NCBI GenBank assembly: GCA_016841385.1
Contig: JAENZF010000002.1
Location: 5,268-43,987, forward strand
Source of the DNA: Methanobacteriota archaeon
GTDB lineage: Archaea; Halobacteriota; Methanomicrobia; Methanomicrobiales; Methanoculleaceae
DNA length: 38,720 bases
Reading direction: 5' to 3'
The position numbers and the translations under genes are program-made. Below the pieces are notes generated by a model, which was not told the DNA's origin, did not search any database, and was given only the letters and a program-made list of their open reading frames with translations. Of this stretch, positions 1 to 38,697 are shown piece after piece (within the stretch, counting starts at the first letter, position 1; the number at the start of each line of letters is the position of its first letter).

Positions 1-295
1 TATGGGGCTGCCATCCCGGGTGGACGGGGAGCAGACCCTGTTGAATACGTCCTCTCCCGGATATATGAACCCCCTACCGTGCGGGGAGAAAGTGAACGAT
101 CCCGGAGCACCACCGGTGCCACGCAGCCTGCAGACCCCGCCCACATATAAAGGACCCACACAGAAGGGCGTAGGCGCCCGATCGCCTTCTTCGGCAACCA
201 TTCCTATGCGGAAGCCCGCGAACCCGGCCCATATGCGCGATACGGAGCCCCCGAACTCGGACGACCACCGGCCAGGCGTCGCACGAGCATCTGAC

Positions 296-419
296 CGGCG
301 CTCGGGCTCCGGTTCTACGAACCGTCGCACACCGCACCTCCGGCGCTCGGGCTCCGGTTCTACGAACCGTCGCACACCGCACCTCCGGCGCTCGGGCTCC
401 GGTTCTACGAACCGTCGCC
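296..419. repeat. Tandem 45-bp repeat array (2.75 copies)
   Basis: Units start at 296, 341 and 386: CGGCGCTCGGGCTCCGGTTCTACGAACCGTCGCACACCGCACCTC; the third copy is truncated at about 419. Each unit contains the hairpin CGGTTC-TAC-GAACCG. Confidence 0.95.
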
Positions 420-785
420 ATTCACACCCGATACCGGCCGGCCGTGCTGCTTGGACACTTCCGGCGATGCCTGACATCAGCCCATCTGCGTCGCCAGGTG
501 AAGGGCGGCCCCCCATAAGATCCAATACCTCCATGCCATGCCCCGATTGAGGCGAGGCCTGATCTAAAAACCCAAATTCCCATCCCGGCTTCGGGAACAA
601 AGAGGCAGACATAAACCACATGCTGCTATACATAAAAAGGAGTGAGGGGCAATCATGAGATCCGTGGAGCCTGCGCACAACCGGACCCCGCGGCACACCC
701 GATTCCCTCAATCGCCATCTCAGCCAAGGCGTATCGTTCAATCAGCCTTATTGAAATAGCAAAACCAACAAGTGGGATAGGTAAA

Positions 786-2080: not shown

Positions 2081-3465
2081 CGGAGATGCGAAACGGAAAA
2101 CGGATGTTTGGAACAAACGGTGTGCGGGGCGTGATCGGAGAGATGATGACACCGGCCCTCGTCCTCAAGATCGGCGCCGCGCTCGGATCGATGAGGAAGG
2201 GCACCATCGCGGTCGGCAGGGACACGAGGACGTCCGGCGAAGCCCTGGCCCACGCCCTCAAGGCCGGGCTCCTGATGACCGGGTGCGACGTGGTAGACAT
2301 GGGCATCCTCCCCACGCCGGCCCTGCAGTATATCATAAAGACCAACCGGTTTGCCGGCGGCGCGATGATCACCGCATCCCACAACCCGCCCGAATACAAC
2401 GGCGTGAAGATCGTCGAGGCCGACGGCACCGAGATGTCAGACGACGAGATCATCCGGCTCGAAGACCGGTTCTTCGCCGGCGAGTTCAACGTGGCCCCCT
2501 GGGACGGCGTCGGCGCGGAGGCCGCCGCACCCGACCGGATCGAGGAGTACATCGAGGCCGTCGTGGGGCACTTCCCGACGGGCATCGGCGAGGGCATGAC
2601 CGTCGTCGTCGACCCCGGTTCCGGCCCCGCGGCGCTCACGACCCCGATCATCCTCTCAAGGATGGGCTGCCGGGTCCATACCATCAACGCCCGGCTCGAC
2701 GGCACCTTCCCGGGCCGGATGCCCGAGCCGACCCCCGAAGGGCTGCAGCCCCTCTCGGAGATGGTCATTGCCACGGGTGCCGATTTTGGGGTGGCGCACG
2801 ACGGCGATGCTGACCGGGCGGTCTTCGTCGATACCAAAGGGCGCTATATAGAAGAGAACTACGAGTTCGGTCTGGTCGAGGACTACGTCTGCGGCAGGAA
2901 CGGTGGCGGACTCGTCGTCACCCCGGTCGCCACCTCCCGGCTGATCCGGGATATCGCAGAGAGACACGGATGCACCGTCGACTACACCCCTGTCGGGAGT
3001 ATCTACGTCGCAAGGAGGATGATCGAACTGATGAGCGAGGGAAAGAAAGTCTCGTTCGGGGGTGAAGGAAACGGCGGCCTGATCTACGCCGACCACCAGT
3101 TCTGCCGGGATGGGGGCATGACCGCCGCCATGATGGTGGCGGTTCTCGCAAGCCATAACGGCAGGAAGCTCTCGGATATCCTCGATGAACTCCCTGCATA
3201 TCACCTGATCAAGGAGAAGCACCACGCCAGGAACCCGTCCGCGCTGGTCCGCACCGTCGAAGAGGCATTCTCGGGAGAGACCATCGAAAAGATCGACGGA
3301 ATCAAGATCGTCAGGGACAATGCCTGGGCTCTGGTGCGGGCATCGGGCACGGAACCGATGATCAGGGTCATGATCGAGGCAAAGGACCCGGGCGTCGCGG
3401 ATGCCATGTACCGGGAGATCATGCAGGTTGTGACGGGTGCGACGGGCCGAAGGGCCGGAGCATGA
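2077..3465 (+). CDS. glmM: Phosphoglucosamine mutase / phosphomannomutase family protein
   Basis: MFGTNGVRG, TASHNPPEYNGVK (active-site Ser), DGDADR, GGEGNGG, RASGTEPMIRV motifs. Confidence 0.9.
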   Translation: MTEMRNGKRMFGTNGVRGVIGEMMTPALVLKIGAALGSMRKGTIAVGRDTRTSGEALAHALKAGLLMTGCDVVDMGILPTPALQYIIKTNRFAGGAMITASHNPPEYNGVKIVEADGTEMSDDEIIRLEDRFFAGEFNVAPWDGVGAEAAAPDRIEEYIEAVVGHFPTGIGEGMTVVVDPGSGPAALTTPIILSRMGCRVHTINARLDGTFPGRMPEPTPEGLQPLSEMVIATGADFGVAHDGDADRAVFVDTKGRYIEENYEFGLVEDYVCGRNGGGLVVTPVATSRLIRDIAERHGCTVDYTPVGSIYVARRMIELMSEGKKVSFGGEGNGGLIYADHQFCRDGGMTAAMMVAVLASHNGRKLSDILDELPAYHLIKEKHHARNPSALVRTVEEAFSGETIEKIDGIKIVRDNAWALVRASGTEPMIRVMIEAKDPGVADAMYREIMQVVTGATGRRAGA

Positions 3466-3690
3466 GAAATTCGAAGAGTTTCGAGCCGGAACAGGAGCAC
3501 CGCAGGTGCGGGTGGTCAGGCAGGCATGAACGCCTCGCACCTAACGGTGCTCGAGCTCCGGCTCCCACCCTTCGGGTGCTCACGCTCCGGTCCTGCGGAC
3601 CATCGCGGCTCGAAGACCTTCGGTCTTCTCAAGCTCCGGGCGTCCCGTCCGTCGCACCCTTCGGCCCGTCGCACCTCACCCCTCACAAAC
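3436..3690. repeat. Complex modular hairpin repeat (copy B), including an inverted core overlapping the glmM 3' end
   Basis: Consecutive small-loop hairpins GCACC-GCA-GGTGC, GCACC-TAAC-GGTGC, CACCC-TTC-GGGTG, GGTCC-TGC-GGACC, GAAGACC-TTC-GGTCTTC, joined by TCGAGCTCC / TCACGCTCC / TCAAGCTCC linkers. Confidence 0.85.
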
Positions 3691-8643: not shown

Positions 8644-9085
8644 CCGATCACTCTGGAAAGGAGTATTGGGCGGTTTTCGGTGATTAATGCATCGAACCGC
8701 CGGGATACAAAGAGGACGTAATGTCACCGGAGGGCAGACCGGACGGCCGAGCGTCTACGCCGTCATCACTCCCGGAAACGCGACCTGCCCTGACGAAGCG
8801 CGGAAGTTTGTAGACTTTGTTCTGGACGCGTTCCGAGAAGGGAGGGCCGGATGGCCCGTCCTGGTGGGACCAGGGGCGGAGGCTGCCACTGTGTGCCGTG
8901 CCACGAAGTGACAAACCTTTTCCGCACCGCCCGCCCATGTAGAGGTAGAGTATACCCGGCGGTGAGGATTCTGCAGATCACCGGACGGCCGCCGGAAGTA
9001 CCGCAACCGGATAAAGAATGCCGGGCAGTATGCGGCCGAGGATGGAGGTGACCCTCTCCGGCCGGCGAAACACCGATGGGATACT

Positions 9086-22794: not shown

Positions 22795-22960
22795 CTGCAC
22801 GGGGAGCGTGGTCGGGATTTCCTTTGCGCCGCCCACACCTGACGGTGCTCGAACTGCAGCCCCTCAGCCCGTCGCTGCTCGAAAACGCTTCGCGTTTTCT
22901 CGAGCTCCTGTCCAACGGACAGTCGCTGATCCAAACGCGGAAATACCTGCGGGCCTCAAT
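22795..22960. repeat. Modular hairpin repeat (copy C) in the cobT-cobZ divergent intergenic region
   Basis: CACCTGACGGTGCTCGAACTGCAG..., GAAAACGC-TTC-GCGTTTTC, TCGAGCTCCTGTCC-AAC-GGACAGTCGC. Confidence 0.8.
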
Positions 22961-38123: not shown

Positions 38124-38261
38124 GAGTGTCCGGCTGCGTAGCGGTGCGTGGGCGTCTCGTCCCCGGGAAGGATACAGTTCAGACCTTTGCTTGCACAGCG
38201 GGACATCGCGAAACTGTACACGGATTTCCAGTGGATATCGCGACTGGGGGAAGGGGCTGAC

Positions 38262-38287
38262 GGGGAGGGGGGCCTGCCCCCCTCCCC
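38262..38287. other. Very strong GC hairpin
   Basis: GGGGAGGGGGGC-CT-GCCCCCCTCCCC, 12-bp perfect arms. Confidence 0.9.
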
Positions 38288-38329
38288 TGTCTCTACCGCA
38301 TAATGGGATACACGTAACCCCCACCCCGC

Positions 38330-38410
38330 CCGGCCTCCGGCCTCCTCAGTCGCACCTTCGGTGCTCATGCTCCGGCCCTATGGCCCGTCGCACCCCACAC
38401 CTCGGGGCGG
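38330..38410. repeat. Modular hairpin repeat (copy D)
   Basis: GTCGCACC-TTC-GGTGCTCATGCTCCGGCCC-TAT-GGCCCGTCGCACCCCACACC; core 38364-38394 matches the reverse complement of 3436-3466 at 29/31 positions. Confidence 0.88.
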
Positions 38411-38697
38411 GGGCAGTCATGGCGATACCCGGTGGAAAGCCGTGCTCCGGAGTGCAGCCATCCGCGAAGGCGCGAAATCTGTGGGGGTGCTATCCCTGCG
38501 CTTTCCTTTCGCGGCAACGCGAGCGACGGGCGATCCCTCACATACCAAAGCCCTCAAAATAAGGTGAAATAGTCCACTAGATAACCCCGCGCCAACGTAA
38601 ACTGCCGGCGGAAAAAATCTTCACCGGAGCAGGTTTCCAGGGAAACGGATCGTCCGTCCTCCCCTCAAACCACAAGTGCTAATATCGAACCTGCCAC

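Follow-up and report, generated by a model that had tools for sequence, protein, structure and literature searches.

The paired hairpins scattered through the analysed archaeal DNA belong to a family of repeat units of 43–51 nt. We regard these units as probably being very small, non-autonomous mobile double-hairpin elements that spread in Methanoculleus-like archaea, with a folded single strand as the likely substrate of an enzyme acting in trans, or of replication and repair. Elements are named here on the strand as presented, and the window is a 38,720 nt stretch of G000, a draft genome of 2.17 Mb in 260 contigs.

Architecture of the double-hairpin element

The initial annotation had picked out four loci sharing the order hairpin 1, linker, hairpin 2 and RTCGC, and we found this order in the sequence at all four. 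Copy D is a complete element on the plus strand (38350–38393), made up of TC (38350–38351), hairpin 1 GCACC-TTC-GGTGC (38352–38364), TCATGCTCC (38365–38373), hairpin 2 (38374–38386), GTCGC (38387–38391) and AC; it matched our covariance model with an E-value of 2e-13, and its opposite strand folds as single-stranded DNA with z = -3.1. Copy C, delimited from the sequence and its orthologues in the genus, is also complete (22879–22928, plus strand) and contains hairpin 1 GAAAACGC-TTC-GCGTTTTC (22881–22899), the linker TCGAGCTCC (22900–22908), hairpin 2 (22909–22921) and the tail GTCGC-TG (22922–22928), with an opposite-strand fold of z = -4.1. On its 5' side lies a degenerate unit, CACCTGACGGTGCTCGAACTGCAGCCCCTCAGCCCGTCGC (22836–22875, plus strand), which was matched by the model at G000:C106:28099-28144 (E 8e-4).

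Copy B is an outer, host element (3535–3672, plus strand) split by two inserts. Its hairpin 1 (3537–3550) and TCGAGCTCC (3551–3559) are followed by the hairpin-2 left arm GGC (3560–3562), while the right part CCTTCGGCCC (3658–3667) and the tail GTCGC (3668–3672) lie beyond the inserts, and this split architecture recurs at other loci. Insert 1 (3563–3608, plus strand) reads TCC-CACCC-TTC-GGGTG-CTCACGCTCC-GGTCC-TGC-GGACC-ATCGC-GG and insert 2 (3609–3657, plus strand) reads (C)TC-GAAGACC-TTC-GGTCTTC-TCAAGCTCC-GGGCGTCCCGTCC-GTCGC-AC, with model matches at 8829–8875 and 8876–8924 of C106, respectively. Copy A consists of three tandem 45 nt units (295–429, plus strand), recognized from sequence and model, with hairpin 2 GGTTC-TAC-GAACC and an imperfect hairpin 1 that carries an A.C mismatch. 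At the 3' end of a phosphomannomutase-like gene, sequence and model also revealed a minus-strand array (3432–3512), in which the hairpin-2 arm of a decayed element encloses a complete one. This array, the mismatch in copy A and the nesting of copies in one another go beyond what had been described. Within the window, we counted 26 occurrences of TCNNGCTCC where 11.8 were expected, a number that none of 100 shuffles reached, and GCTCC-N8-20-RTCGC occurs 13 times against 7.3 expected, a count reached in 3 of 100 shuffles.

The unit can be written as TC-[hairpin 1]-TC-NN-RC-TCC-[hairpin 2]-RTC-GY-N'N'. In the 26 elements from which the covariance model was built, 90.8% of cells are paired, compared with 28–48% in slid controls and with 0 of 500 shuffles as high, which supports the compensatory stem changes proposed earlier; the inner-stem pairing rate is biased, because pairing was required when elements were collected, and unbiased evidence comes from pattern matches collected without a pairing rule, most of which form the hairpin. 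Across 175 distinct elements from six genomes, 70 hairpin-1 and 106 hairpin-2 sequences occur in 161 combinations, indicating that the two hairpins vary largely independently.

The linker had been described as constant; it is not simply constant, as it pairs with the 3' tail, a feature that had been overlooked. The linker R is paired with the tail Y in 157 of the 175 elements (shuffle mean 100; by type, G-C 112, A-T 45, A-C 14 and G-T 4), and the second N of the linker is paired with the first N' of the tail in 110 of 175 (shuffle mean 60). Neither value was equalled by any shuffle, and the outer linker–tail pairs had played no part in choosing elements. A 4 bp outer helix was rejected, since the fourth pair was found in 58 of 174 elements, below the shuffle mean of 65; the outer helix is therefore 3 bp long. 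Because the linker pairs with the tail, hairpin 2 can be divided into this 3 bp outer helix, then a TC/TC internal loop, and innermost a stem capped by a loop of 3–4 nt. TC also directly precedes hairpin 1 in 136 of 175 elements, a feature not used in selection. At the copy C site the R.Y pair has switched in place, being G-C in G000, G055, G063 and G077 and A-T in G070, G064 and G057, and is paired in all of them; G055, for example, has GAGCTCC...ATCGCTGA and G057 has GAACTCC...GTCGTTAA, with the same nested hairpin between.

The TC/TC loops correspond, on the opposite strand, to GA/GA, a tandem sheared mismatch of the classical type. When distinct hairpins are counted on that strand, 68 of 106 triloops are GNA (mirror motif, 4) and 31 of 51 tetraloops are GNNA (mirror motif, 0), with a C-G pair closing 82 of 99 GNA or GNNA loops. 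Of the 31 GNNA loops, 26 have a pyrimidine as their third base (GNYA), so they are not of the RNA-type GNRA class. Nakano et al. reportedly found in 2002 that the d(cGNNAg) class forms unusually stable DNA. Of 100 elements, 92 have a GA strand more stable than the strand presented when DNA parameters are used, and 96 when RNA parameters are used; because the RNA parameters favour it too, it is the GNYA loops alone that argue for DNA over RNA. The sequence d(GCGAAGC), an extraordinarily stable DNA mini-hairpin (PMC10527192, PMC4686876), occurs in the GAAAACGC-TTC-GCGTTTTC hairpin type.

Copy number, movement and nesting

The family is dispersed, as had been proposed, and none of the outcomes named beforehand as refuting the proposal was observed. 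The copy counts rest on searches by model and by pattern and on genome stretches totalling about 2.3 Mb. On this basis, G000 holds at least 160 covariance-model matches at E up to 0.1, and CTCNNGCTCC-N8-20-RTCGC occurs 97 times in this genome against 16 for the pattern read backwards. Pattern counts were raised in most of 35 genomes of the element's own genus (probably Methanoculleus or very close to it), the highest being that of the single-contig G052 (202 against 15 for the reversed pattern), and some congeners were at the background count. Outside this genus, an order-wide survey of 232 genomes found a high count in one further genus of the same family (G082, 46 against 10) and a few model matches in other families of the order. 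Among the genome records with names, complete elements occur in Methanoculleus sediminis, in Methanoculleus MAGs and in Methanomicrobiales or Euryarchaeota MAGs. A 14-base exact pattern was searched in the whole GTDB collection; among the matches listed (at least 119 named loci), a complete element was present in 8 of 9 methanomicrobial loci and in 0 of 110 non-methanomicrobial ones, and spread beyond the order was rejected on these matches. The phage and plasmid records searched held no similar DNA. Just as the initial annotation had recognized no named family, Rfam gave no family match to the element above the gathering score, and at E up to 1 returned chance miRNA matches only, all outside the element. 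No description of the family was found in the literature searched, where subscription journals were mostly missing.

The units are mobile, as the same site in related species may lack a unit, carry one or carry a different one. At the copy B site, the phosphomannomutase-like locus, the nest of G000 has no counterpart in G055, G064, G046, G074 and others, all without an element there, and different units stand there in further species; the site orthologous to the minus-strand array lacks it in several congeners. The copy C site is empty in G072 and others, and the species in which it is filled differ in hairpin-2 contents at the identical nucleotide. Two close species make a clean comparison: G052 is empty at GACGGGGAG|GGGGGAGC, and G051 has one 46 nt unit between the same flanks. 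Tandem amplification contributes to copy number too, and a whole hairpin-2 stem-loop can be swapped with hairpin 1 and the linker kept (L388 of G071 versus L314 of G052).

Other changes were observed at particular loci. Arrays at L304, L309 and L314 of G052 have been amplified to as many as 6–8 tandem units, and related species have one to three at two of these loci. At L357 of G055, orthologous to L309 of G052, hairpin 1 has an inverted loop (GAAGACC-GAA-GGTCTTC), as would result from an in-place flip of the palindrome. A further long palindromic repeat, CTTCGCGTTCTTCGCGGCTTCGCGTGAG together with its inverse, has been inserted in other species at the intergenic sites of copy C (L262, L277 and L279) and copy B (L243).

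Units also nest in the second hairpin of other units. Cutting out a complete unit restored an intact host hairpin 2 in 23 of 199 elements (six genomes); in all 23 the insert points the same way as its host, and in none the opposite way. Some nests are copies of one another, and we therefore estimate the independent number to be nearer 18. The mixed-flank control gave 19 of 631 (3%) in the same orientation and none in the opposite. Split hairpin-2 arms separated by 36–60 nt numbered 19 against 2 in the decoy, a few of them being tandem copies rather than nests. The insertion point is at the 5' edge of the hairpin-2 loop or adjoins it, with neither duplication nor deletion, as in the exactly restored hosts GTTCC^GTTGGAAC, GCTCC^TCCGGAGC, GTTCC^TCCGGAAC and TGCC^GTTCCGGCA; copy B of the window is a GGC^CCTTCGGCCC nest with two inserts. 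An autonomous, gene-carrying version was rejected, since arms separated by 601–3000 nt showed no excess (197 against 216 in the decoy).

At L266 (G055) and L259 (G057), both at the copy C site, and at L352:3005 (G055), the insert is a single hairpin: a TC-flanked hairpin 1 stands alone in a hairpin-2 loop, in the form GCTCG[TTCGAAGACCTTCGGTCTTCTC]CGAGC. These inserts suggest that a single hairpin may be the smallest module able to move.

The fixed boundaries, the single orientation in a near-symmetric target, the lack of target duplication and the choice of a hairpin loop as target together point to a folded single strand as the substrate of movement. Telling the two sides of a palindrome apart is not to be expected of a transposase that acts on double strands. 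We also considered purely mutational upkeep, in which template switching at replication forks (quasi-palindrome correction) creates and mends the palindromes, slippage and recombination between copies spread them, and neither an enzyme nor selection on the fold is needed. The common tandem expansions and contractions are consistent with such a process, as are the hairpin-2 stem-loop swaps between orthologues and the searches for a mobilizing enzyme described below (Y1, reverse transcriptase and IS110), which gave none. However, template switching could keep stems paired but would not conserve unpaired bases or unit boundaries, yet the TC before hairpin 1 and the GNA and GNNA loops are kept; nor does mutational upkeep account for fixed-boundary units that lie where unrelated stems meet their loops, always in a single orientation, or for single units at dispersed sites. 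We consider this explanation unlikely.

Genomic position and the search for a mover

Intergenic enrichment, which had been put forward as a check, was apparent: of 212 elements, 183 lie between genes, and a simple gene caller assigns 84% of the sequence to coding regions. The preference is above all for convergent gaps, which contain 53% of arrays against 28% expected by length, and divergent gaps contain 10% against 25% expected. Elements between tandem gene pairs show no strand preference (14 versus 17, p = 0.72), and neighbouring elements lie on the same strand in 76 cases versus 21. An in-frame hairpin unit, GTCGGGTCGAAGTCTGACGACTTCTCCCGCTCC...GTCGCGACGGCGAG, was also seen within a coding gene at L070:9241 (G000) and L313:10892 (G052); its shorter version in G051 could be a deletion remnant.

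Enrichment in convergent gaps and depletion in divergent ones would suit a structured RNA or 3'-end signal kept by the host, such as a terminator or an element of mRNA processing or stability, and the element folds well as RNA. Nevertheless, we rejected a strand-specific RNA role on the even strand counts at tandem gene pairs, and an RNA function also sits poorly with orthologous sites that are empty beside conserved genes in congeners, with tetraloops that are mostly GNYA rather than GNRA and with the lack of an Rfam match. The structured-RNA option raised by the initial annotation is accordingly disfavoured, and we judge a host-kept RNA or 3'-end signal to be improbable.

Less probable still is a REP/REPIN-type element moved by a Y1 (RAYT) transposase, since the units are indeed short, palindromic, intergenic, present in hundreds of copies and free of target duplication, but G000 and nearly all high-copy genomes, the single-contig G052 and G048 among them, lack Y1_Tnp, and the element has no GTAG tag. 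Y1_Tnp was found mainly in low-copy relatives; among genomes of the genus with a full match, only G063 was raised in count, G056, G065, G068, G075 and G078 being low-copy. Mobilization by TnpA-REP/RAYT, as initially suggested, was rejected on this distribution. A group II intron or retroelement mover was rejected because the reverse transcriptase profile RVT_1 (PF00078) was found in only 4 of 40 family genomes and was largely absent from high-copy genomes. An IS110/IS1111 non-autonomous derivative was rejected because DEDD_Tnp_IS110 (PF01548), detected in 9 of 40 family genomes of mostly low or middle copy number, was found in neither G000 nor the highest-copy genomes. The Y2_Tnp profile (IS91/Y2) had no match in any genome, control genomes included.

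Within the favoured reading of non-autonomous mobile elements with a folded single-stranded substrate, we tentatively put forward a more specific possibility: a self-targeting folded ssDNA element that may be recognized by its shape (tandem GA/GA and GNA or GNNA loops) by an enzyme other than HUH-Y1, IS110 or reverse transcriptase, its stems drifting freely while paired. The substrate would be a folded single strand, probably the one opposite to that presented, on which the conserved unpaired bases would form tandem GA/GA mismatches and GNA or GNNA loops. A trans-acting enzyme, or replication and repair, would read this shape rather than the stem sequence, and the unit would be joined into an exposed hairpin loop. 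Copies unable to fold would cease moving, which could explain why stems drift yet stay paired.

Relation to known elements

The closest kinds are REPs and mitochondrial double-hairpin elements. As a short palindromic intergenic repeat with many dispersed copies, the element falls among REPs broadly defined, and the earlier view of it as REP-like in kind holds. It resembles REPs of the GTAG and CGTC super-families in being a short, high-copy palindrome with stem subsets that is intergenic and mostly 3' of genes (PMC3733652). REPs, however, are single hairpins of 20–40 nt with an unpaired end tag, have been reported from bacteria and usually occur as head-to-head dimers (PMC3733652), whereas our element has two hairpins in fixed order, conserved internal loops, mostly head-to-tail arrays and self-nesting. 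Its consensus lacks the unpaired GTAG tag and single hairpin of GTAG REPs. CGTC REPs, which have no associated transposase and so provide a bacterial precedent, have a single 8–9 bp hairpin, a terminal unpaired CGTC and a CCA-like tail (PMC3733652); here there are two hairpins of mostly 4–8 bp, and (C)GTCGC lies 3' of hairpin 2 with its GC paired with the linker.

Nearest in anatomy are the double-hairpin elements of Allomyces, which show no target duplication (discussed in PMC2800124). The fungal and sponge mitochondrial elements described there are likewise tandem hairpins with few complementary substitutions, and their frequencies differ between close relatives; our element has two adjacent hairpins with compensatory changes and a distribution that differs in close relatives. 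The mitochondrial elements are organellar and unrelated in sequence, and no mention of one-orientation nesting in loops was found in PMC2800124. Common descent is not likely, and the resemblance is one of kind.

Single-strand transposition of the IS200/IS605 type involves orientation-specific insertion without target duplication, and subterminal hairpins. The element differs from that type in the lack of Y1 in nearly all high-copy genomes, in having no fixed tetranucleotide target and in stems without constant sequence. In Methanoculleus marisnigri, satellite families with 45 and 51 nt repeats have been given as tandem repeats, the families being mostly ascribed to genes (PMC6749651); on repeat length and genus, these satellites may be tandem arrays of the element.

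REP-like and double-hairpin elements that lack a transposase have, since their first description, raised the question of how they move. The mechanism is testable in this family because it is abundant, occurs in many sequenced species of a single genus for which complete genomes exist, varies between close species and leaves nests that record site, boundary and orientation. The family may offer a natural example of shape-recognized DNA mobility, and in Methanoculleus the element will interfere with assembly, gene calling and the annotation of 3' ends.

Finally, copy D lies within a separate 226 bp element (window 38219–38444) with terminal inverted repeats CACGGATTTCCAGTGGATATCGC and GCGATACCCGGTGGAAAGCCGTG and GC-rich inner palindromes. 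Elements resembling it occur throughout the genus (L070, L313, L363 and L393), often with a hairpin unit inside, and it looks like a second, MITE-like family.
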